Positions 13,799 through 63,965 of a DNA stretch of 64,000 nucleotides are shown here, piece after piece (within the stretch, counting starts at the first letter, position 1; every line of letters starts with the position of its first letter). Origin of the DNA: Solicoccozyma terricola (taxonomy: Eukaryota; Basidiomycota; Tremellomycetes; Filobasidiales; Piskurozymaceae). The position numbers and the translations under genes are program-made. The notes under the pieces are model-generated. The model was not told the DNA's origin. It made no database searches and was given only the letters and a program-made list of their open reading frames with translations. The stretch is taken from contig BCLD01000002.1 in the NCBI GenBank assembly GCA_001600875.1, forward strand, positions 155,164 through 219,163, in the 5' to 3' direction.

Positions 13799-16700
13799 TC
13801 AAGCGCCCCAGTGTGCATACGGCGCCCAAGCGAGCGGCTGCTTGCGCAGGTCCAGGTTATCTCGGACGTGCAAGGTGGCAAAGTGGACTGCTTCGGCGAG
13901 CAATTGATCTTGCCAGTCCTTGACACCGGTCTTAAACATGTGGGTCCAGAAGGATGAGGCAAAGTGGGGGGAAAGTCGGTCCATCACCGGCCACATCGAG
14001 GCAATGACGTGCCTGAAGCCAGCAACGAGGAAGCCCGATGCAAGATGGAGAATTTCGTCGTTGAGTGGCTCAACACGATTTTGAGCGGTAGAGCAGGCAG
14101 AAAGGAAGGTGATTGCGGCATAAGGGAGGTCCTGTTGTGTGAGCTCTTCTAGAGTGAGTCGCTCGACAGCTGGAGGATCTTGGAAGTCTGCTTTTGGCTT
14201 GCGAAGGAGGGCGAGGTAGCTTTGGGAGGGCACTTTAACATCGGACAAGCCGTGGCATACGAGATGGGCGACCTGGCATTCTCGGAGACTTGCCAGGACA
14301 TCTGAGGCATAGTTGGTCTCCTTGATACGGATTTGAAGCGCCTCGTGGGCCTCGGAGGCCGACTTGATCATCTCGGAAACCTTCCCAAGTTCTGTCTTAG
14401 CGCTGTCGAGGTCATCCAAGTCAGGATCGGGCGTTTCCTCCATAGCAGACATGATAACGCTGAAGCCGTTCTCGAGAGTGCGCAGTTCCTTGGTCTGCTG
14501 TCTCGAATGAAGGAGAGCATTCAAGGTCGGAGCGTATGACGAGATGACGTAGTCCATGGTGGTATCCACGATTCGTCCGCGCTTGTAATGGGTGGCCGCA
14601 TGATAAGGCAGATGACTAGCAGCACCGCAGCCGATCCACCAAACTCGAGACAGCTTTCGTCCAGTTTCTCGATCGGCAGGAACCAATTTGAGGGCTAGCA
14701 GAATCGGACGGACGACAAACTTCCACAACCAAGGTAGGCTCTCGTCCCGAAGCTTCTTGTTGACTTCACAACGTTGTTCTTCGTGACAGGCCAATTGCTC
14801 TTGCTGGAAGTTGCTTTGAACTTGCTCGATAGTGAAGTCGGGTAGGGGGATCGAGATTATGCCCGTTTCGGTTACGAGGATCGCATCGCTTCGTCTCGCA
14901 TTCCCATTGACGAGAATGATTGAACCTGATTTTGCAAGTTGTCGAAGTTCGTCGTCGCTAGCGGTCGAGAGAGATCGATTAACGCGTACAGCTAACCAAG
15001 CCCTTAGCATCAGTCCTCGAGCATCTTCCAGTAGACTTATGGCTTCCCTGACAGGGACTGCCGCAGATGAAAGCGCAGCAGCACAAGCAAGCGAAGCCAT
15101 ACTCGGCCAGTATTCCAGAGTGAATTGCTGGTCCTCGATGGTCAAGTTTCCGGCGAGCATTTCAGGAAGCCTTTCAATGCCCATTCGGCAGACGGTCATC
15201 GCCTTCTCGAAGTTATTTTGGCGGAAGAGAGCATCTGTCAGCCTGAAGGCCGATTCGGTGTAGATATGGGGCGAGACGTCTGCATGATCCATCGCTCGAT
15301 TCAGAGCATACATGCCTTGCTCAATCGTCTGCTCGAAGAGAAGGAAAACGTTGCCGATGATGAACCACAGGTCAGGGGTGGCGAAGCTTTCGTCCGCGAT
15401 GCACTCGTCGTAGGCTTGCTTTGCGCAGTCCAGTGCTGCCTTACGCTGCTCGAAGGTGCGTTGTCCGTTCTGAAGCACGTATTGATGGCTGCTCAGTTCC
15501 AGCGTACGTAACATGGTGGATTTGGCCATCGGACCTTCTAAAAGTCGACCGAGAAGAGCTGGAACAGGCGCTTGCGTCTGGGTAGCGGGGTCAGCTCCGA
15601 TTGTCAACGGCTGCATCACGGCGGAAAGCATGCTCGTCAGCGGACCTGAATCCGAATGCCCGCTCAAAGCAGCCATAATGCTGCCTGTCAGGTCGCTGCA
15701 GTCCATATTCCGGTCATGACGGATTGAGCCAAAGCTGGTGACCGCTGTGGTCAACAGGTCTCCGAAGAAGAGATCTGCCAAGTTCTGCTGCGGAAGTATC
15801 TGCTGATACCGACGTGCTTCCGCCTGATGATAACTGCTGGTACTGTACGAGCCCTTGACAAGGCGGATATGCATCATCGACAGAGCGCAGCAGCATCCCG
15901 CGCAGTCAATGGTGCCGGTTTGCATTGTTGCCAGCTCCGCTTCAGCGATGGGAATATATTCGAGCAGTTGCGATTGTCCATTGGGCATAGCGTCCGCCCT
16001 CAGTACAAGCAGCAAACCCCAGGTGACTCGATAACAAATCGTGCTGGGTCCGTTGCTGGTGAAATGCGGAGAACCGTAACCTCTCGCTCGATGCAACGTG
16101 TCCAGTCTATACGTTCGGAGAAGGCCATGTAAAGGATGATGTAGAGCTTGTTGAGTTCGTGAAGGTTCCCCGCCTTGAGGTCTCGTTCATTTGGTGAGGT
16201 GACCCAGGGCGATCGCTCGAGGCAGGCTATGGCGTCTTGGACCTTCTCTTTATTGAGATTGAGACCCCCTCCTCCGGGACCAGTAGGCTCAGTCAAGATT
16301 AATGCTAGCCTCTCCAGGCGCTCACCATCCGCATCAAGCTCCCCAAGGCGTTGAGACAAAGCTTCTGACATTCTAAAATGCTCTTCTGCCAGTTGGGCGA
16401 GCGCTTCGCCGCCGTTATAATCGAAAACAAGCTCAGACTCGATGTAGCCAAGGCAATAGTAGAGGCGAAATTCGTACTCGTCCGGAGTTCCTTCTTCCGT
16501 GTTCTCGAGGTATCGCAGAGCGGTCTCCAAGAATATCTTGCCTTTGTTGAGAAGCTCAAGCGAAAGATGTTGGCGGTGCAGCTCGGATAGGATATTCCCT
16601 ATAATCGGGGAGAACTTCAGGTAGGCCTTGGCAACGGCTCCTGCATTGTCCGGGGAGTTCGCCTCGGCGACATCGAACAAGGCAATGGCCTGTTCGGCGT

Positions 16701-16974
16701 AATCGATGGCGTTGAGGAGCGTCTCGACTCCTAGCCAGTCAATATGAACAGCCAGCTGAGCCTTCATTAGTAAGGCTCGGCCATAAAGCATGTCATCGTT
16801 GATAACGATGGCTTGCTGCAGAGCGGTCTCCACTGCTTCCTCGGCGGCGGCAAAATGCTGGCGCCCCAGATAGCGATTCTCCTCGTTTAGGAATTCCTGA
16901 ACGGCGGGGTGTTCTTCTAGAGCAGTGTGGGGGAGACTAATGAAGGCGGCCGAGTTGGACAGCGAGGAAGACAT
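13799..16974 (-). CDS. TPR-CHAT caspase-like protease, 2 exons
   Basis: The protein has an N-terminal helical/TPR-like region of about 700 residues and a C-terminal CHAT domain (caspase HetF associated with TPRs, clan CD protease). Exon 1 runs from the ATG at 16974 (MSSSLSNSAAFIS) and exon 2 ends at 13799. The intron lies between about 16112 and 15999. One frame-consistent solution is 16112-16027 (GTATAG donor, TCGAG acceptor), giving about 1029 aa; other boundaries are possible. The predicted catalytic dyad is intact: His in VCHGLSD (codon 14252-14254) and Cys in LSACSTA (codon 14093-14095), 53 residues apart. Other CHAT marks are WWIGCGAASHLPYHAA, SSYAPTLNALL, GFRHVIASMWPV and the end YAHWGA. 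It faces the gasdermin-like gene at 17488 head to head, 513 nt apart. A paralogue lies at 53137-56547. The proposed role is a sensor protease that cleaves the neighbouring effector; this is inference. Confidence 0.88.
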
Positions 16975-17487
16975 GATGATGGTGCGTGGAAATGGAAAGA
17001 GTAAAACGAGACGCTGGGTGTATGTTAGGGCGAATAGCTGAAGCCAGTTAGCCTCGAAAGCTCAATGGAAGCGGACGGTTTCAGAGTGCGATGGATGCGG
17101 CGTGTTTCGGAGAAGCTGTTCCCGCAACGAAGGCTTGGACTTCGTGCCTTGGGGGCGCCATCTCTTGTCTCATCTGGTACCTTTGCGGACAAGAATTTCA
17201 CCGCGGAAATGTATGGGCGCCTGAGCCACGTTCTCACGCCACTCATGTTCATGATCAAGGTCTCATTGTTTCCGCTTTGGGTGAGAATATCCCCGGAGTA
17301 GACTGGAAGGGGTACGCACTCATACATCCTCAATCAGCTTGCCACGCTGAAAGATATCCTTCACATCGATTGCTTGTGGCACAGTCCCAGGGCGCAATCT
17401 TCGAATCACCCTCCCCTGACTTCCTGAATTGCACAAGATTACAATCTTGTTGCTCTGCATTGGCCAACAAAGGTCTCCCGCTTCACA
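16975..17487. promoter_or_regulatory. Divergent intergenic region of the CHAT / gasdermin-like pair
   Basis: This 513-nt spacer separates the two start codons and must hold both promoters. I see no clear TATA box. Short ORFs inside it have no family match. Co-regulation of the pair is inference from layout only. Confidence 0.5.
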
Positions 17488-18486
17488 ATGAGCTTCATCA
17501 TGAAGAACACCGAGGAAGATCCCTTCGCGGACTTCCTCTCTCCAAAAGATCAGATAGAACTCCAGCCCAGAGAGACTGTGCGACTTGGAACGCTCGTCAC
17601 AGATCCCTCTGACCCCGAAAATGGGTGCTGGAAGCCCTCCGAGGAGCTTGCGAAGAAGTTCAAGTCGAATCCGATCCCCAGGAATGCCTTCGTGCATGGA
17701 AGAGTGCGGGCCAGTACCAGGACCTCGATTTTGTCCCTTACCTCCTCGTTCAAGCTCAGCAGAACGCGAGATGACTCCAAAGGAATCATTTTGACTGCGG
17801 AGAAGGGCGAGGTCGTCATGCTGCAGGATGTGGGTGCTGCTCTCGAGACGATGATCAACGACACCAAGGATTATCGAGACTTGAAGGGGCTGTACGACTG
17901 GATTGAGTCAAAGTACAACGAGATCGGGACCAAGAAGAAGACTGTCAAATACCTCTACCTCATGGTCGGCTACCGAGTCATCGAGAATGCCACTCTGGAG
18001 GAATGGACCCTGTTGTCAAAGGAAAAGTCCGTCCAAACAGAGGTGCCGATCGACAGGCTGATCCAAGTCGCTACTCACGGCACCCTCAACCCTCCCTCGG
18101 CCGTCAACGTCCAGCTCGCCTTCGGCAACAAGAAACTCGGCCAGCGAATTTTCCATGACCAAGTGCCTGGGCAATCGGTCTACTGCGTCGCCTATCGACC
18201 AATCAAGTTAGAACAGCTTGTCGTCGCGCATGAGGAAGAGAAGCATATAAAGGAAAAGTTAGCGCAAGTCGGCAAGGGCATCAAGTTCGAGCAGATGATT
18301 TGGAGCTCCATGAAATCCAGGGCCTCCAGGGAACCCGGCCAGCCTGGCGCGGCATATTTCACGCTCAAGGTGGTCGAGGAGGACGGGCCCGTTCATGATG
18401 GTCCATGCGAGGGTCTTTGGGCACAGGGATTCGAGTTGGATGTCGAGGATGATTTGTCCGAGGAGTCCGATCCGGATGAAGCTTGA
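17488..18486 (+). CDS. Candidate fungal gasdermin-like pore-forming effector
   Basis: An intact, intronless 332-aa ORF starts at MSFIMKNTEEDPF. Two related decayed copies exist at 51173-51870 and 63690-63965. Shared landmarks are VRLGTLVTDPSDP (residue about 31), an SRTRDDS stretch near 95, the hydrophobic strand KYLYLMVGYRVI (about 154), a GTLNPPS segment near 197, and VPGQSVYCVAYRP (about 227). A charged helix from about residue 247 and a strongly acidic tail (DVEDDLSEESDPDEA) end the protein. From memory, a GxLVxDPxxP start and a YLVTGxK-like strand occur in fungal gasdermin homologues (RCD-1 / HET-Q1 group), and those genes commonly sit beside subtilisin or CHAT protease genes. This gene is divergent from a CHAT protease, and so is the 51-kb copy. 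The C-terminal segment would be the natural place for inhibitory cleavage. Gasdermin identity is inference; a lineage-specific unknown family is the alternative. Confidence 0.55.
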   Translation: MSFIMKNTEEDPFADFLSPKDQIELQPRETVRLGTLVTDPSDPENGCWKPSEELAKKFKSNPIPRNAFVHGRVRASTRTSILSLTSSFKLSRTRDDSKGIILTAEKGEVVMLQDVGAALETMINDTKDYRDLKGLYDWIESKYNEIGTKKKTVKYLYLMVGYRVIENATLEEWTLLSKEKSVQTEVPIDRLIQVATHGTLNPPSAVNVQLAFGNKKLGQRIFHDQVPGQSVYCVAYRPIKLEQLVVAHEEEKHIKEKLAQVGKGIKFEQMIWSSMKSRASREPGQPGAAYFTLKVVEEDGPVHDGPCEGLWAQGFELDVEDDLSEESDPDEA

Positions 18487-27818: not shown

Positions 27819-28831
27819 ATGGACCTCCAACCACGTCAAACCTTCTCTTCTGCTCGAATGACTGGCCCTATGTCACGATCCTTAATTCAGAATGGCTCGG
27901 CTGGGAGCATAGCCTTCTTTTTGGGCAACCCTGGCACCGGCAAGAGTGCGCTATGCAACGTTCTAGGGGCTTCTTTTCTCAGCGGTTGGTCCGATGGAAA
28001 AGGACTCACTCGACACCTCCAGACCCATGATATCATTGTCAAGGGACAGGTAATCACCTTGATGGATGCACCGGGTCTTTACGAGATTACGACGAAGATC
28101 ATCACAAAGTATTAAAGGACGGAAAAACAGTCGCGATGGAAAACGCCAAAGAAATATTGGAAGGTCTGAGTCGAGGCAGGCCCTACTCTTTGATATTTGT
28201 GGTTGCGCCGAGAAACGGTCGATTGCTTCCCGATGACGCTGCCCTCGTCAAGGCGGTAATGGGCGCTTTGGAGGTGAAGGATCACACGGTCGGGATGGTA
28301 CTTACCCAGATCGATCCCGAAGATATGAGGGCACTCGCAACAGACGAAATCTCGATGAGAAACTTCCAACAGCTGGCTCAGAGTTCTTTACCCCGAGGTA
28401 CTGTGCTGAAGCTGCTATTGTTGGAAAACGCGAAAACTGAGAAAGAGCCAGCGAAATCTTTGTTCAAATTCAAATTACTCCAGTTCATCGAAGAAGTAGG
28501 GTTTTCGGAGGTTCGGGTTGTGAAGGAAGAGATCGATGTCGGCGACGAGAATGTTCGTCGAGTTCGCAAGGAGCTTTCCGACTTGAGGAAGGCTCAAGAG
28601 GCAGAGGCGCGAAAACATCAGGAGGAGCTTGCCGCTATCAAGGCTAAGGTAACGAAAGCTGAACAACTCTCAGCGCAGGAGAGAGAAAAGTGGGAGGGGG
28701 AGAAGGAAAAGAACCGACAACAGGAGGAGAGGATACGTCGATGGGAGGAAGAGGCAAGGAAGATGAGGGAGGAAATGGACTATGCGGCGAAGCATCCTAT
28801 TGAAACCCTCCTCAAGAATATTTTTAGCTGA
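27819..28831 (+). pseudogene. AIG1-like GTPase with C-terminal coiled coil, one frameshift
   Basis: Frame 1 (27819-28115) has the P-loop FFLGNPGTGKSALCN and the G3 motif LMDAPGLYE. Frame 2 (about 28085-28831) carries RPYSLIFVVAPRNGRLLPDD, the G4-like GMVLTQIDPED, and a long charged coiled coil (KAQEAEARKHQEELAAIKAK onwards) ending in HPIETLLKNIFS. A one-base change near 28080-28095 explains the break; no intron fits the short overlap. The result would be about 335 aa, typical for fungal AIG1-like GTPases. It lacks the Cys/His tail of the gene at 20-21 kb, so the two are different subtypes. A sequencing error at the break would make it intact. Confidence 0.75.
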
Positions 28832-35350: not shown

Positions 35351-37556
35351 GGCAGGTTGAACGAGTTCAATGCTGTGCCGGAAGAACGCCTTGGAGAGCT
35401 TCAGAACGGCAGCCTATCACCGGAGCCAATCTCGTATCGGGTCGAGTTTGACGGGGTTTGGAAGATAAATGATGTTGTTCAAGACATCTTCTGGCCTTCC
35501 CCACGACTGTGATCGACAGCCCGACGAACGTCTGAGGTCGTCTTCTCCGTCCGGGAGGCATCGGCAAATCAGCGGTAGCGACAGCCGTCCTCAATCACCC
35601 TTCCGTGGAGGAGGGCTACGGCGCCTTCCGGTTCTTCATCCGGTGCGACAGCGCAACAGCGAGTTCACACGGAGCGAGGCCATCTGTGTCATCTGTAGCA
35701 GATGCCGGCGCCCAGCTCATAAGGCTAATCGCAACAAGCCTCCGGTTGGCTGTGTCTCGCGGCCAAGCCAACGACATCGTGGTGGACTTCTTTTCCCGGC
35801 AACCCTCCGTACTCATGCTGGATAATGCGAGACTTTGTGGGATGGAAGCGGGCCAGACCTCAATGCGCTCCTCCAGCCCCTCTTTGCCTTGCCAATGTTG
35901 AGCTTGGCCATAACCAGGCGAGGCATAATCACCCCCACCGATAAATGGCTGTAAAGATGCTGGACGTGCTCGATATAGACTCAGCACGGAAGATGTTCAC
36001 ACACTTCAGCGGAAACGCGAACCATCGCTCCGACCATTTCTTGGACAAGATTCTCGGTGCTGTGGACTGTCTTCCCCTTGCAATTGTCCTCCTAGCCAAA
36101 CAGGCTAGGACAGCACCCGACCTAGAATCCATTTGGCAGGAATGGCAACTCTGTCGAACGGCGATGGTAAAGGATGATCGATACCAGGAGGACTCATCCG
36201 ATGCGAGGTTGCTGAATCTGGAGGCATCCATTCAGGTCTCGCTCGATCACCCATTGATGGCTAAATGCCCTTCCGCACCCAAGCTTTTATCCCTATTATC
36301 GCTTCTGCCGGATGGTGAATCATGCGACGATCTCAAAGCTCTTGTTCCTTCCAGCACCCTGTCCAAAAAACAGGCTCGCCCCGAGATGGTTCTGCTGGAG
36401 CTGGCGCTGGCCTACATCGCTTCGGTCAATGGACGGCCCTCAACGAGCGACACCTCCCATCACGATTTGCAAGGTCGTCTACACGTTTTTAGCCCCCATT
36501 CGGGAGTATGTCCGGAACAAATATTCACCGGAGGCGACGGACTACAAACGGCTCACGAAGCATCACCTGAATATCGCCACCGGCCAAGTGACAGGCACGT
36601 TACTGCTCAGGCTCGGGTCTGAGATCCATAACGTGGAAGCCATCACGATTCGATCCCTCAGCGTCGAATCCGAACGGGAGCAAGCCGTCCATTCCGCAGC
36701 CTCACTATGCAATTTCATGGATATCAGCGGAATTGCACTCCCTGCTTTGAAGCAAGGTCTGCATGAAGTCCTTCCCGTGCTGCGGAATAAAGAGCTTACT
36801 ATTATAGTACAGAATATTATATGGCGCATGTCACTGCGTCAGTTCGACTACGACAAGCGGCAACCAGGTTCCATGAGCCGCTCCGCCTCTACAAGGACGT
36901 CGTGGACTACATTGTCTACCTGGGCCTGGGCTCTCAACCAGTCAAAGTATGACGAGGCAAGACAGAGGTTTCATGAGGCCCTGACAGTCTATGAGGCGGC
37001 CAGCGACCAGCACGGCAAGGCACAGTGCATCCACTACCTGGGCCAGGTCGCTCTTTGCCAGTCATAGTATGACAAGGCCAGACAGAGGTTCGAGGAGGCG
37101 CTCACCCTCTTCGAGGCCACCAGCGAACAGCACGGCAAGGCGCAGTGCATCCACTACCTGTGCCGGGTTGCTCTTCGCCAGTCAAAGTATGACGAGGCAA
37201 GCCAGAGGTTGGATGAGGTGCTCACGCTCTATAACGAGGTTGGCGATTGGTGGGGCAAGGCGCGATGTATTCTCAACCTAGGCGAGGTCGCTCTTGCCCA
37301 GTCACAGTATGACATGGCCAAATATAGGTTCCGGGAGGCGCTCACGCTCTACGAGGCGGTCAGCGACCAGCACGGAAAGGCATGGTGCATCCAATACCTC
37401 GGCCTGATCGCCTTTAGCCAGTCAAAGTATAACGAGGCGAGAGTGAGATTTCAGGAGGCCCTTCCGCTCTGTGAAGATGCCAGTGACAAGCACAGCAAGA
37501 TCCGGAACCATGTGAAAGGACAGGCTGTCTTTTCGTGGGTCTCCCTTAGGGGTTAG
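35350..37556 (+). pseudogene. NB-ARC-TPR (NLR-like) protein, decayed
   Basis: This is a STAND-type signalling ATPase remnant. The P-loop RPGGIGKSAVATAV is at 35551-35592 and the Walker B strand SVLMLDNA near 35805-35830. A region around DCLPLAIVLLAKQ (36070) matches the GLPLA-type motif of NB-ARC, and KLLSLLSLLPDG the winged-helix segment. Five TPR units of exactly 40 codons follow from about 36939, 37059, 37179, 37299 and 37419, each starting QSKYDEA-like and containing HGKAQCIHYLG-like text. Breaks are a TGA before the P-loop, frame changes near 35835, 35940 and 36430, and a TAG in TPR 2 (37065-37067, AAG to TAG against its neighbours). The N-terminal effector domain is not visible. In life it would have been an intracellular non-self sensor. 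Confidence 0.82.
36939..37490 (+). repeat. 120-bp tandem TPR-coding repeats
   Basis: AGTCAAAGTATGACGAGGC and close variants recur every 120 bp five times, and the intervening CAGCACGGCAAGG recurs with the same period. High identity implies recent unequal exchange or conversion. Confidence 0.85.
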
Positions 37557-45289: not shown

Positions 45290-46790
45290 AAACGAGGACA
45301 CACGCATACTTTGTGAAAGATAGTGAACTATGCCTGGATAGAGTGTTGCGATGTAAGGAGATCGCTCAAGCAGTCGATCGATGTATGCCGGTTGCGTAAG
45401 AAATGCCTGCCTGTTTTTGCGATCACGAGTCACTTTCATTCCAAGGATGGTACTCACTTCTTCCATCTCTGAAAGTTTCCAGAAAGTCTTGAGCTTTTCC
45501 AGTAGCTTATCGATGTCGCCTTTAGTTTCTGCGGCTATGACAAAATCATCCACATAGACCAGAATGTTTACGAGACCCTCCTTCCTTGACTTGGTCGTGT
45601 GTAAAGGGCCCAGTCGGATTCAAGCCTATGGAATCCAATCGTTGATAACTTGTTACTGAGCTCCCTCCACCAGGTTCGCCCGGATTGCTTTAATCCATAT
45701 AAAGCTTTCTCGAGCAATAGTCCATCGCAACCTTTCTTTGGAGTGACTCCTTCTGGATACTCCATATAGATATCGACATCAAGCGTGCCATTCAAATACT
45801 CACCTTCGACATCTGCTTGGTGAATCTCTAGATCTAGCGTTGCCGCGATTGTCAAGAGAATGCGCAAGGATGTCGTGCGTCCATCTGGTGCATATGTTTC
45901 TTCAAAGTCGATGCCGGGAACCTGAGAATAACCCTTGGCTACTAGCCTTGCTTTGTATTTGGCGATCTTGCCGTCTGCATTCCGCTTGATCTTTAGCACC
46001 CACTTTGCTCCGACCTTCTTTCGGTATTTCGGCATCAGAACCTCTTGCCAAGTGCCTTTACTTGTCAAGTTCTTAAATTCGTTGTCCATTGCCGCCTTCC
46101 ATTGTGGTCGATACGCTCCAACTAGTGCTTCCTGTAGTGTTTTCGGCTCGTCTTTGTCAAACCCTGTTGATAACGCGCAACCTACTTCAGAAGCTAGATA
46201 GGCGGTGCGAGCATTTGGACCTGTGCTCGTCATGAAAGTGTTGCCAGTGAATCTAAGGTGAGGTTTCCTTGTCCTTACAGGGTTATGCCGGACTCCTTGC
46301 TCATCGACAATTGATGTTGATAGAGGTGCTTCCGGGGGATTCTCTTCCTCCGAGACATAGTCCCAGCCAGGCCTGATACGTTCGGGTCTGATCCTAGTCG
46401 GTGCGGTTTCCGGTACTTCCACATCTTCGGGTTCTGCAGCTTCATTGTTGTCTTCTGCAACATTGTTATCACGATTTGGTTTGGGTTCAGGTTCTTCTTC
46501 CTCCTCATCTTGGAGATCATTGAAATTTATCACGGTTTTGCATGATACCGTGCTAGATCGAGTTTGGTTTGCGGTAATGTTGGAAGAATGCCAGTTCTAA
46601 CTCCCGTTGCCAGTCGGACATCTCTAGACCATACTATCCGTCCGGTACTTTCCAGTCTTACAACTCATCCACTTACGTTCTCCTCCTGTCCAAGGAGTCT
46701 AGCTTCTACGCCGTTTGTCGTCTCGAAGCTAGCCTTTAGTCTGGTTTCTGTGGGAATATGTACAAAGCGCATACTGCCAAATCGTAATAT
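45290..46790 (-). mobile_element. Ty1/copia pol fragment (integrase tail and reverse transcriptase)
   Basis: The minus strand reads RFVHIPTETRLKASFETTNG, a TGA, then VVRLESTGRIVWSRDVR (post-integrase domain). An acidic linker follows (321-aa ORF to 45568), then the RT blocks AKWVLKIKRNADGKIAKYKA, KGYSQVPGIDFEETYAP, EIHQADVEGEYLNG and LYGLKQSGRTWW. A one-base loss near 45568 separates the catalytic YVDDFVIA (45546-45557). RNase H and the 3' LTR are missing. Confidence 0.88.
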
Positions 46791-50964: not shown

Positions 50965-51172
50965 TGTTACGAATAAAGTGGTGGCAAAACTGGGAATGAT
51001 ATTCGGTGAAGTCTTCTACTACATCTCTAGCTCGATAACCTAGGTATTTATGTAGTGCCAGACGAGTTCCCTCTGCCACACTTGCATCCTACCTTATACT
51101 GATGCATCCTAGATTGATCCAGGCTTGACGACAGTGTTACGGACACGTGTCCATAAAAGCCCTATCTTAACA
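50965..51172 (-). repeat. Solo LTR, family A, inside a gene
   Basis: On the minus strand it starts TGTTAAGATAGGG at 51172 and ends TTTATTCGTAACA at 50965 (208 bp). It is nearly identical to 57835-58041. It cuts the coding sequence of the gasdermin-like copy at 51173. Confidence 0.88.
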
Positions 51173-51870
51173 CTTCTGATAGTGAACGAGGAAAATACTT
51201 TCGCCTGGATAGGACCCCAGAGCCGGCAGTCACGACACCTTTCTTAGCCTCGGCGGAGAAGCCAGGATTGAGGCCGGGTACAGGCACTCCGCTCGCGACC
51301 AAAATGATCTGGGACACGGGGATGGATCTGTTGAAGTTGATCGCCTTGAAGCTAACGTAGTATTCCTGGACGACAACGTCCTTGACCAAGTGATCCCGGT
51401 GACTAGATAGAGGTCACCATTCCCTTGAGCGGCCTCGATGAAGCGGTACAATGTGCCTCTGCTGGTCTTGCCTTCCGCCTGCTCTTTGGCAGCCCGGGCA
51501 ACTATCTGATCGAGAACTTTTGACGGTCGCAAGAGCTTTTTGACGTTCTCTTGGGGAGTAGCGACATGGACAACGCTGGTGTCGCCTCGATCTCGACTAA
51601 CGTCCACGAGTTGGTTCAGCTTCAGGCCGCGGTGACTGTCGTGGAGAAAAGCGTAGTATTTCGAGACGTTGTTCTGCTATTTTGGGCCTAGGACCTTGCC
51701 GTCGAGATGGCAATCGAAGGTCTTTGCGGTCGGATTCGACCTATTCTTGACGAGACTTCCGAGCTGAATCGCTCCCATGTCTTCGAAGCTGATCATGGTT
51801 TGCATGTTGGTGGGGATGGCAGATTCAGCAAAGAGGTGTCGGTGTAGTGGGAGAATACCTTCTGATCATC
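51173..51870 (-). pseudogene. Decayed gasdermin-like gene, copy 2
   Basis: Same family as the gene at 17488. Landmarks in order on the minus strand are IQLGSLVKNRSNP (about 51775), SRDRGDTS, GDLYLVTGI (51395-51420), a GVPVPGLNPGF segment, and PGESIFLVHYQ just before the break. The copy is non-functional: a TAG lies at 51677-51679, frame changes occur just after the LVTGI strand and near 51215, and a solo LTR replaces everything downstream of 51173. The first ATG is at 51805. It lies head to head with the second CHAT gene, as copy 1 does with the first. Family membership is read from the sequence; the gasdermin identity is inferred. Confidence 0.7.
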
Positions 51871-52539: not shown

Positions 52540-53136
52540 GCTCTAGTAGTAGGTATATCAATAGCGCAATTCCGGGCGCCAATGTCATTTCCAACGGCCC
52601 CTCTCGAAAAGCACTCCGACGTGCCGATTAGGAATTCCGGGCGCTATGTCATTTCCAACAAATCCCGCTTCCCCCCTCTCATCCAGGTGAACGCTGAGTC
52701 ACACTTTCCACCTCAAAGGCCTAGACCTTCTCCCGGCTTTGCTATACTGCTGCGGTCCGCCTATAAACAGCCCTGCTGGCAGACACAAGGTTGACTGCTG
52801 GACTAGAAAATCGAACAGAAAAGGATCCGCTCATAGGAAATCAATATAAAAGGGGGGAGGGGGAGGGGGAGCGGGAGGGTCGTGAGGACCGCTCAACCGT
52901 TCGTCGAAAAATTAATCAGCTGAGAGCTGACTCTTCTCTCAAAGGTCCCTCGGTGTCTTCTTGTTGAATTCAAGAGTCCCCGGTTTTCAAGACATCTCCG
53001 ACTGACGTAACAATCCGAAAGATTGCAGAGAGCGTTGCTGGTGGCAATCAGCTGCGCGATATATTCCAACCGCTTCAGCTGTTTCTCTCCCAATCGAGAC
53101 CTGCGACCACCATTCACGCAGCACAGCCGGTCCATC

Positions 53137-56100
53137 ATGAATCCGGACAAACTACCTCCCAGGGCCTCTGGTGGCGGAATCATCAGTCACACAGCTCCAG
53201 CAAGGGACGCTAGGCTCCTGGCTCTTCTGGATCCCGAGAACCCTATCAGCAGGTATATCCGAGAGACTGACAAGTCCGTTCGAAAACTTCTTCATCAAGC
53301 GGCTCAAAGTGTACTAGTGGAGATTCATCAACAGTGTCAAGGCCTCGAGGGCGAAGCTCGACCGGATTACCTCTACCTTCTCTACGTTGCGAAGGCCACT
53401 GTTGCGCTACGACACCAGCAAGATCTCGACGTACAGGACCCATTTGAGGAGGCCTTGGACATGGCCGAGATCGCGGTCACAGAAGCTTCGCCTGGTCAGC
53501 GACGTCTGGTGTACAAGGATCTCGTGAATCCGCTCTGGAACGCTTTTCTGGCTAGGCAACCTTCCATCGACACTATTCGCCGCTTACAAACTTTCGTTCG
53601 GGACGCCGTAGCATTCTACTCGAATATCCCCGAAACAGCCAGCACTCGGAGCGCCGGGTATCATTTCTTAGGACAGATGGGCGTCCGCATTTGGCAAAGC
53701 GATCGGGTGAATTTGGACGAGCTGGACGCAGCAGTAGATGACTTCCGCCTGTCGGACGACCTGGCCTCAACTACCGAGGGCGCGAGGGAAAAGACTTACC
53801 GGCTATTCGATTACCAGTACGCTCTCTATGTCGCCGGGATTCAGCGCAAAGACCGAGGAAGGTTGGAGAGGGCTTTGAAAATCGGAAAAAGATCTCCCGG
53901 TGTCTCTTCCTCCGTAGACGACGAGTTGGAAGGAGGTCCTCTCAGGCAACACTTGGACTTGATCGAAGATCTCGAGCTCCTCTACAACGTCACATCCGAT
54001 CACGAGGAAGTTCTGCGGATAATGAGGAAGGGCCTACTTCGGACCGGTCCTCAAGATGCCAACAGGAAGCAAATCGCCGAAATCGGGGGCCGTCTGCTGA
54101 TCAACACGTTCGATAGGCTGCCGGACCGCTCCAGTAAATACGCGTTGTTGAACTGGGTCAATACCTCTATTCCTCCTGCAGCCGCAAACGACATCGCTCG
54201 CCCAACGCTTCTGTCGCTGAGCACTGTTTTTCACCTGCAAGTCCGGCTCAAAGAACACGATTCTCGAGATCAGGCAGCTGCTTTAAATCAAATTGCTTCC
54301 GGTGCCTTTGCAAACCGCCCAGACCTCTCCGAGATGTTGGAGCGTCTCCCACTCCAGCGAACTAGTCATGTCGGCCTTCAACAAGGGGGACCACAGACCT
54401 TCGACGTTGATGCCTGCATGGAAATTTTACACAACCTGCTAATGGCCGATGACGCATTTCTGAACCGCGGTATTTTAGGGCATTCCTACCAATTCCTTGT
54501 CGAAACCTATGTCGTTATGCTCGAATCCTACTACTCAAAGGGTCTTAGTGTGCACCACATCGAGAAAGGCATCAAGTCCTTGTTTGGTCTCATCACCACG
54601 GCGGAAGCTGACTCTTCCGAAATGGGAAAGAAAATCGCACTCGAACTTCGGATCCGCCTTGGAACTCTCCTCATCGCCTTGAAAAATGAGCCCAGTTTTC
54701 GGGATCGGAGCACGTTCGCCGCAGACGAGGCGCTCGAGATCTACTTCTCGGCCTGTCGAGACCGTGTTGATCTAAGTGAACAGGCATGGCATGACCTTGG
54801 CTTTCAGCTCGAACTTCGGTCCCAAACTCTGCCACAGGCCGCTGACGCTTATGAGAAGAGCTTGATCGCTCCAGTTACGGTTTTTTCGTCAGGTATCCTT
54901 ACTCGATACCGCACGATTTCTTTTCTTGTGGAGGTCTATCTGCGGCTAGTTGAACCGGAATCAGCCCTGAGGACTTGCGAGGAAGGAATCGAGGAGCTAG
55001 AGACCCTTCTCGACAGCTCGCTCCCGTTGTCGGATATGGAGGGCCGTTTGGCAGCCATCTGGATGCTCGGCAGCACCGCCTTTGTCCTCGCTATAACGTT
55101 GAAACGGTCCGTCTATCGAGCTTTGGAGCTCTTAGACGATGGTCGCGGCATCGTCATCGGAAGTCTCACAGGAAGCCGTCGGGATTTCGAGGAGTTGCAG
55201 GCGGAAGGCATGCAAGAATTCGTCGATCGAGCTCAAGAGCTCAGATCGAGAATGTCGCCCAATGAATCGCCTCAAGGTGAATCATTTGTAATGGCGACCG
55301 AGCAATTATTGCAAATTCAACAATGTCGAGAGGCCGCCACCGACTTCCGCCGGCTCGTCGACCATGTGAGGAAGATGAAAGGGCATGATCGCTTTTTGCG
55401 AACGCCAGCGGAAGAAGACCTGATGCGCGCCGCTGCGCATGGGCCCATCGTGCTGGTCAACGTTCATAAATTTCGTAGCGACGCCATAGTGATCACGCAG
55501 AAGTGCATCAGTCACCTCCCGCTTCCCAACTTTGACAAGGAGGATATTAAAGTCAAGTTCGATGCTGCCATGTATACCTGCGAGGCGAACGAGACAATGA
55601 CCGTGAACGACAATCTTCTCGAGTCGTCTTTACCATGGCTCTACACGTCGGCCGTGCTTCCGGTCTTGAAAAGTCTCGGATTCGATCAGCCCAGCGGTCG
55701 AAGATCGCGCCTGGAAGATCTCCCCAGAATCTGGTGGATCGGCTGTGGCGCCGCCAGCCAACTGCCCTTCCACGCGGCCGGTCTACACGATGCCAAGAAT
55801 CCAGACAGAACCATGGACCATGTCATCTCCTCCTACGCTCCGACCCTCAAAGCGTTGTTCCATTCAAAGTATCAATCCGCCAAGCTTTCGAGCCTCAAGG
55901 ACGGGTTCACCGTGTTCGGGACGACTATGCCGAACACGCCTGGCATGAACAGTCTTCCCAACGCAGGAGCAGAGCTGGTTGCAGTTCGGAAGGCGTTCAA
56001 GGAGAAGTCGAAAGCCGACTTCATCGAACCCGAATCCCCGTATGCCTCCGATGCCCTCAGCCTACTGCGTGAAACCGAGATCGCTCATCTCGTCTGTCAC

Positions 56101-56547
56101 GGCCAATCCGACCTCAAAATGCCGTCTCAAAGCTACCTTGCTCTTCTGCACAAACCTGAGCCCGATTCTAACGCCCGGCCGATGCTCGAGAAGCTCCGCC
56201 TCGCCCAACTAGCTCAGACGGACCTCGTTCGCGCTTGCATCGTCTTCCTGTCGGCTTGCTCGACCGCTCAAAATCGTGTAGAACAACTAGAAGACGAAGT
56301 GTTGCATCTAGCCTCGGGATTCCTTGTCGCGGGATTCCGTCATGTTATCGCCTCCATGTGGCCTGTCTCTGACATTTTCTCCCCCGACTTCGCGGATATG
56401 TTCTGGAAGACGGTGCTTGAGATGCCGGTGGAGGAATGGGATGATAGGTTGGTGGCGCTGGCCGTGCACAAAGCGACACTTTACGTCCGAGAAGACGTTC
56501 CGGGTAACCCGTTGGCGTGGGGCCCGTACGTGCATTGGGGTGCTTGA
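53137..56547 (+). CDS. TPR-CHAT caspase-like protease, intact
   Basis: An intronless ORF of 1136 aa from the ATG at 53137 (MNPDKLPPRASGGG); the frame is open further upstream but has no earlier ATG. About 780 residues of helical/TPR-like repeats precede the CHAT domain (roughly residues 840-1136). The predicted catalytic His988 is in LVCHGQSD and Cys1041 in LSACSTA, spaced 53 residues as in the 14-kb paralogue. WWIGCGAASQLPFHAA, SSYAPTLKALF, GFRHVIASMWPV and the terminal YVHWGA are shared with it. The gene is divergent from the decayed gasdermin-like copy 2. Unlike its partner it shows no lesion. It should act in the cytosol as a regulated cysteine protease; substrate unknown. Confidence 0.9.
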   Translation: MNPDKLPPRASGGGIISHTAPARDARLLALLDPENPISRYIRETDKSVRKLLHQAAQSVLVEIHQQCQGLEGEARPDYLYLLYVAKATVALRHQQDLDVQDPFEEALDMAEIAVTEASPGQRRLVYKDLVNPLWNAFLARQPSIDTIRRLQTFVRDAVAFYSNIPETASTRSAGYHFLGQMGVRIWQSDRVNLDELDAAVDDFRLSDDLASTTEGAREKTYRLFDYQYALYVAGIQRKDRGRLERALKIGKRSPGVSSSVDDELEGGPLRQHLDLIEDLELLYNVTSDHEEVLRIMRKGLLRTGPQDANRKQIAEIGGRLLINTFDRLPDRSSKYALLNWVNTSIPPAAANDIARPTLLSLSTVFHLQVRLKEHDSRDQAAALNQIASGAFANRPDLSEMLERLPLQRTSHVGLQQGGPQTFDVDACMEILHNLLMADDAFLNRGILGHSYQFLVETYVVMLESYYSKGLSVHHIEKGIKSLFGLITTAEADSSEMGKKIALELRIRLGTLLIALKNEPSFRDRSTFAADEALEIYFSACRDRVDLSEQAWHDLGFQLELRSQTLPQAADAYEKSLIAPVTVFSSGILTRYRTISFLVEVYLRLVEPESALRTCEEGIEELETLLDSSLPLSDMEGRLAAIWMLGSTAFVLAITLKRSVYRALELLDDGRGIVIGSLTGSRRDFEELQAEGMQEFVDRAQELRSRMSPNESPQGESFVMATEQLLQIQQCREAATDFRRLVDHVRKMKGHDRFLRTPAEEDLMRAAAHGPIVLVNVHKFRSDAIVITQKCISHLPLPNFDKEDIKVKFDAAMYTCEANETMTVNDNLLESSLPWLYTSAVLPVLKSLGFDQPSGRRSRLEDLPRIWWIGCGAASQLPFHAAGLHDAKNPDRTMDHVISSYAPTLKALFHSKYQSAKLSSLKDGFTVFGTTMPNTPGMNSLPNAGAELVAVRKAFKEKSKADFIEPESPYASDALSLLRETEIAHLVCHGQSDLKMPSQSYLALLHKPEPDSNARPMLEKLRLAQLAQTDLVRACIVFLSACSTAQNRVEQLEDEVLHLASGFLVAGFRHVIASMWPVSDIFSPDFADMFWKTVLEMPVEEWDDRLVALAVHKATLYVREDVPGNPLAWGPYVHWGA

Positions 56548-63689: not shown

Positions 63690-63965
63690 TTGGTGAAGAG
63701 AAGAGGTTGACAAGAGGTCAGGTTACAGTGAGGCCAAGAACGTTCCACTCCAGTTTGAGGCCTCCTCGCCTGTCGTCGAGGCAACTATCGTACCTCGAGA
63801 CGCCGTTCTAACATTTTGGGCCGACGATGTCGTCCTCACCGAGAGGATGGCAATCGAAGATCTTCGCGGTCGGATTCAATCTGACCTTCCACGAGCCTTC
63901 CGAGGGAATCGCCCGCATGTCTTCCAGACAGATTGCCAAGGCGTTCCTCCGGGGAATTGTCCGAT
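63690..63965 (-). pseudogene. Decayed gasdermin-like gene, copy 3 (N-terminal part)
   Basis: The minus strand matches copy 2 at DNA level: GAAGACATG(G/C)G(A/G)GC, AATCCGACCGC, TTCGATTGCCATC and GGCCCAAAAT occur in the same order and spacing. Translated landmarks are RLNPTAKIFDCH and RGGLKLEW. A TAG follows the GGCCCAAAAT block, next to the site where copy 2 also stops. Similarity fades near 63690. LTR family B sequence lies upstream at the window end. Confidence 0.6.

Follow-up and report, generated by a model that had tools for sequence, protein, structure and literature searches.

The question raised by this locus is whether two divergent genes of Solicoccozyma terricola, one encoding a CHAT (caspase/separase-like) protease and the other a 332-amino-acid (332-aa) protein, form a cell-death pair like the protease-gasdermin pairs of other fungi. 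Both lie in the window analysed here, a stretch of 64,000 nt (G000:C2:155164-219163, on contig C2) within a 23.9-Mb genome of 33 contigs. They probably do form such a two-gene pair, in which the CHAT protease would activate the neighbouring gasdermin-like effector. The locus comprises the following features.

17488..18486, plus strand: gasdermin-like effector gene, 332 aa, ATG start, an intact single-frame open reading frame (ORF)
17548..18213, plus strand: gasdermin-like domain, residues 21-242, including the LGTLVTDP start and the LYLMVG strand, matched by BLASTP to paralogue L014
18214..18483, plus strand: C-terminal extension of 90 residues with an acidic end, candidate inhibitory tail (21 D/E, 9 K/R)
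16975..17487, no strand: divergent intergenic region of 513 nt, the ATG-to-ATG gap of both genes
13799-16974, minus strand: CHAT protease gene overall, in overlapping frames of 324 aa and 765 aa that differ in phase
13799..16096, minus strand: C-terminal frame of the CHAT gene, 765 aa, from the ORF list, with the Pfam CHAT match
13805..14743, minus strand: CHAT domain, with His615 at 14254-14252 and Cys668 at 14095-14093
16000..16974, minus strand: N-terminal frame of the CHAT gene (324 aa), which may encode an arm of helical repeats (TPR-like, under the cut-off)

The preliminary description of this DNA had proposed an intact 332-aa gene with an acidic tail, and both features hold: the frame is open throughout and 10 of the final 20 residues are D/E. 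When searched directly against Pfam, PDB sequences and 5.8 billion proteins, the 332-aa protein gave no match. Among the open frames of CHAT-flanking loci, phmmer returned one distant relative at E=4.7e-4, a 272-aa protein (L014:8093-8908, minus strand) that is 22% identical and has the CHAT domain at C2:564170 as a neighbour 2.5 kb away. The L014 protein gave 13 further rows genome-wide, of which the window gene ranked lowest (E=0.046), and the 14 L014 rows merged into 10 loci.

Gasdermin-like loci: the window gene, C2:206333, 218911, 242853, 478432, 567592, 616533, 626820 and 628886, and C5:630186

Six of the ten are open across the domain (242853 holds masked bases). The remaining four are broken copies: 206333 has stops as well as a frame change, 616533 has a frame change, and 628886 and 218911 are stop-containing fragments. 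Just downstream of the 626820 copy a second gasdermin-like C-terminal piece is present (C2:626491-626637), which would fit a duplication of the tail. The C5 copy (L041, G000:C5:628686-632096) has relatives outside the genome that are 60-69% identical and, by eye, a candidate 5′ splice site towards its end; it adjoins a frame that is catalase-like by eye, with no CHAT nearby.

Membership of the window gene was assessed with a family profile built from six other members (L014, L031, L034, L041, P0002 and P0003). Run against 2854 open frames, this profile recovers the window gene at E=2e-7 (28.0 bits), and none of the 1172 residue shuffles of the window protein to which the program gave a score, out of 2000 made, reached the real score, the highest being 6.8 bits. 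Aligned to the family by hhalign, the window protein was matched over residues 21-202 with a probability of 95 and E=4e-8, and by BLASTP it is 22% identical to its L014 paralogue over residues 22-242. Single-sequence profiles were weak, with E from 0.006 to 0.25 to five members and an unrelated frame at 0.22 in between, so that membership rests on the family profile. Since homologues were found both inside and outside the genome, the 332-aa ORF is more than a chance frame. A protein search with a profile of P0001-P0003 returned nothing beyond those same three proteins, PADLOC run with five family members returned nothing, and 3 pattern matches to the family on viral contigs included no relative. 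L014 also drew 11 rows from PDB sequences (best E 5e-4), to HigB-2 and to designed beta-trefoils matched along roughly 30-37 residues, which were dropped as chance matches because they are short and a profile of five members fails to repeat them.

The fold of the family was approached through P0002, a member from outside the genome. When P0002 was modelled, gasdermins ranked first in both Foldseek and VIA-align, and gasdermins of fungal, bacterial and animal origin filled eight of Foldseek's first ten rows and all of the first eight in VIA-align, the best structural match being RCD-1 (8jyz, 8jyy). The gasdermin N-domain fold was found, in other words, in the model of a family member, and because the window protein is homologous to this modelled family (E=2e-7, as above), we infer a gasdermin-like fold for it as well. 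Judged by this model, the earlier idea that the effector family is gasdermin-like in fold appears largely borne out. The effector might instead come from another pore-forming or an unrelated beta-rich family, MACPF/CDC-like for example, the gasdermin match then reflecting no more than a common arrangement. This is very improbable, given the run of gasdermins at the head of both rankings and a family size of ~250-330 aa, which fits a gasdermin N-domain better than the MACPF-like entries (454-521 aa, at VIA-align ranks 9-19).

In the partner gene, the PF12770 (CHAT) profile matches residues 452-764 of the 765-aa frame at E=1.1e-30 and 107.5 bits (cut-off 24), and the His/Cys dyad that had been read from the letters is in place, with His615 within HLVCHG and Cys668 within LSAC. 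These two residues we take to be the catalytic pair, as in CHAT and caspase enzymes; the same motifs are also present in three further open CHATs of the genome. The divergent arrangement was likewise as first described, and with 513 nt between the two genes the gasdermin-like gene is far closer to a protease gene than the 10 kb taken as the limit for a protease-gasdermin cluster. S8 peptidases, considered as an alternative activator, are represented by 4 rows in the genome, none of them on C2. Pfam gave no NACHT or NB-ARC match at E<=1 in either window CHAT frame, and the mark of an NLR-type (NOD-like receptor) CHAT protein was thus not found.

Taken together, these findings suggest a mechanism in which the 332-aa protein would be a gasdermin-like pore former held inactive by its ~90-residue acidic C-terminal extension. 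In the divergent CHAT protease, the N-terminal arm, which probably consists of helical repeats, would serve as the sensor; once the arm has met a trigger, which may be non-self, an infection or an incompatible partner, the protease would remove the tail of the 332-aa protein, and the freed N-domains would assemble in the membrane, leading to cell death. By analogy with known fungal pairs, the 90-residue extension, with 21 acidic and 9 basic residues, is likely to be the inhibitory tail and the CHAT protease likely to be its cutter. We infer autoinhibition, cleavage, pore formation, killing, the trigger and the role of this particular CHAT as activator.

Several observations weigh against an active pair of this kind. 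The window protease is not encoded in one open frame; it is spread over two, and the gene may be broken. Between 16130 and 15900, four GT-AG pairs within 40-120 nt (71, 83, 86 and 101 nt) leave the frame open, and a branch site was present in none of these four candidate introns by the single pattern tested, so that an intron and a frameshift are both possible. The pair could on this account be dead, with the CHAT gene disabled by a frameshift and the locus a relic, as the abundance of broken gasdermin-like relatives on C2 would also allow. This seems distinctly unlikely, however, given two long and open CHAT frames, a preserved dyad and an intact effector ORF. The TPR sensor arm of the preliminary description is only suggested by sequence, TPR_16 matching the 324-aa arm at E=0.025 and under the Pfam cut-off; residues 160-268 of the arm gave its single, weak match to another part of the genome (34%, E=0.003).

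The fold evidence has weaknesses as well. A single-sequence AF2 model of the window protein itself reached a pLDDT (predicted local distance difference test) of 40.4 and is useless, and P0002, from which the evidence is taken, is 21-24% identical to the window protein in alignments. Query-normalised TM-scores (template modelling scores) of the top four Foldseek rows were 0.27-0.39, with no match at E<=0.001, and known gasdermins were not matched at the sequence level (no Pfam gasdermin, PDB gasdermin or named homologue). The proposal of a gasdermin-like effector thus stands by way of the outside relative and the family profile, but not on a model of the protein itself or on a sequence match. 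A confident unrelated fold, named at the outset as what would speak against the proposal, did not appear, although the protein's own model could not have contributed one. By sequence, the lineage of the family appears remote from the gasdermins reachable by the searches used.

Whether the two families are associated beyond this one locus was examined from their positions on C2, with distances run to CHAT domain ends rather than gene ends. The genome contains at least 25 CHAT domain rows, of which 15 of 25 are on C2 and form 14 loci from 168968 to 565099 (456252 being joined with 456811), and 9 of the 10 gasdermin-like loci are also on C2, spanning 172651 to 629071. When placement over the whole contig was used as the reference, the nearness of gasdermin-like copies to CHAT had p=0.005 (5 kb) and 0.004 (10 kb). 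Under random placing inside the island (C2:160-640 kb), 4 of 9 copies were observed at 5 kb or less from a CHAT domain against a mean expectation of 2.5 (p=0.22), and 5 of 9 at 10 kb or less against a mean of 4.0 (p=0.37); circular shifts inside the island gave p of 0.24 (5 kb) and 0.39 (10 kb). Since p is ~0.005 against the contig and ~0.2 against the island, the families co-occupy one island, and adjacency beyond CHAT density is not shown. On this contig the gene association first proposed is borne out in part, as shared residence in an island, with closeness inside it not above chance.

Other aspects of the setting count in the same direction. Four of the 9 copies (478432, 616533, 626820 and 628886) have no CHAT domain inside 15 kb; around the C5 copy, none lies within 150 kb. 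Pair orientation is not conserved, the pair at C2:564-568 kb being tail-to-tail; a retroelement-like frame (by eye) lies between that CHAT and its gasdermin-like neighbour. Among 20 CHAT-centred stretches, counted without L010, L017 and the window-overlapping part of L013, the gasdermin-like group recurs in 2, and 36 non-CHAT frame groups recur in at least 2, the widest in 5. Repeated presence next to CHAT genes thus does not set the gasdermin-like family apart, and the recurring groups are probably for the most part dispersed repeats. The most widespread of them (5 of 20 stretches) comprises L021:7963-8412 and frames in L015, L022, L026 and L028.

These results bear on a further explanation, in which the effector is gasdermin-like but the adjacent CHAT is not its activator. 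The two families would simply pile up in a fast-turnover immune island, and the effector would respond to another trigger, such as partner-allele contact as in RCD-1. Chance-level closeness inside the island, the many other frames recurring next to CHAT genes, the remote C5 copy and the 4 broken copies out of 10 are all compatible with this, as is the best structural match itself, RCD-1 being activated, according to PMC10197012, by co-expression of two allelic variants. Against it, the window protein bears a 90-aa acidic tail and the C2 copies carry a shorter tail beyond the domain (by eye). The two window partners have also diverged in parallel. Three open C2 copies share 57-73% identity among themselves but 20-22% with the window gasdermin-like protein, and the window CHAT shares just 398-401 C-terminal residues (48-52%) with five open C2 CHATs, which match one another at 48-69% over nearly their full length. 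Such side-by-side outliers are what co-divergence would give and, as one case, lend weak support to pairing. This explanation is, on balance, unlikely, and activation of the effector by its neighbouring CHAT protease is preferred.

A two-gene cluster of Podospora anserina, TPR-CHAT with gasdermin, was reportedly described by Clave et al. in 2022, and TPR-CHAT/gasdermin pairs are, as a kind of system, already published. About 80% of fungal gasdermin genes lie near protease genes, 17-19% with CHAT (PMC10197012, PMC10989679), and a P. anserina gasdermin is activated by a TPR-bearing CHAT (PMC12881547). The window pair resembles that cluster in a CHAT gene that adjoins a gasdermin-like gene and in a candidate repeat arm on the protease (PMC12881547); it differs in that the TPR arm is unconfirmed, the effector is too distant for a sequence match, the pair sits in a many-copy island and cleavage is putative. 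HET-Q1/HET-Q2 of P. anserina likewise combines a small gasdermin (278 aa) bearing a C-terminal piece with control by a protease, and HET-Q1 loses about 40 residues from its end to HET-Q2 (PMC10989679), compared with an extension of about 90 aa in the window protein; that activator is an S8 subtilase, whereas the window candidate is a CHAT. RCD-1 of Neurospora crassa, although closest to the family model in structure, reportedly works through two co-expressed allelic variants, unlike the neighbouring-protease arrangement (PMC10197012). hetB of Aspergillus fumigatus is similar in encoding a large fungal CHAT protein at a non-self recognition locus, but there a CHAT-domain allele is opposed to a 149-residue allele at one locus, and no gasdermin is shown (PMC11138114).

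The window holds three further features belonging to these families.

51165..51805, minus strand: broken gasdermin-like paralogue (C2:206333-206968), 56% identical to L014, with one TGA and one TAG
53023..56547, plus strand: second CHAT gene of the window, a 1174-aa open frame, Pfam CHAT E=5.3e-30
63748..63930, minus strand: gasdermin-like fragment containing a stop; the CHAT domain at C2:219718-220647 lies 0.6 kb away

The first two of these are head-to-head. Elsewhere, a simple pattern located both dyad motifs within a single frame for 6 of 16 further CHAT stretches; because the pattern is strict and some stretches are cut or spliced, the remaining 10 are not called dead. At C2:340159-341901 (L011) a CHAT domain is directly followed by NACHT (C2:341377-341901) and a downstream frame that is WD40-like by eye; from its sequence this gene looks like a CHAT-NLR. 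HET domains, a mark of fungi, account for 3 rows in the genome. DUF6533, used as a marker of basidiomycetes but lacking a positive control, had 0 hits, a result that carries no weight either way. Also in the window are a Copia-type reverse transcriptase fragment (45571-46533, RVT_2 E=8.6e-39), two overlapping frames with NB-ARC remains by eye (35945-37067), the first without a Pfam match and the second with a TPR_12 match below cut-off (E=1.3e-4), and a 231-aa frame with a GTPase end and coiled coil by eye and no Pfam family above cut-off (28136-28831).

A broader and more doubtful proposal is that CHAT proteases and an unrecognised fungal gasdermin lineage, out of reach of the present sequence searches, were amplified jointly within an island of 456 kb. 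Many diverging sensor arms would there share few tail-bearing pore formers, and copies would break and be replaced, giving a co-diverging sensor-effector repertoire of which the window pair would be the most diverged. The present findings add a divergent gasdermin-like branch, missed by the family libraries used, beside caspase-like proteases in a fungus. They suggest that sequence surveys may undercount fungal gasdermins, and the many-copy island offers a place for a direct test of how sensors and pore formers are paired.

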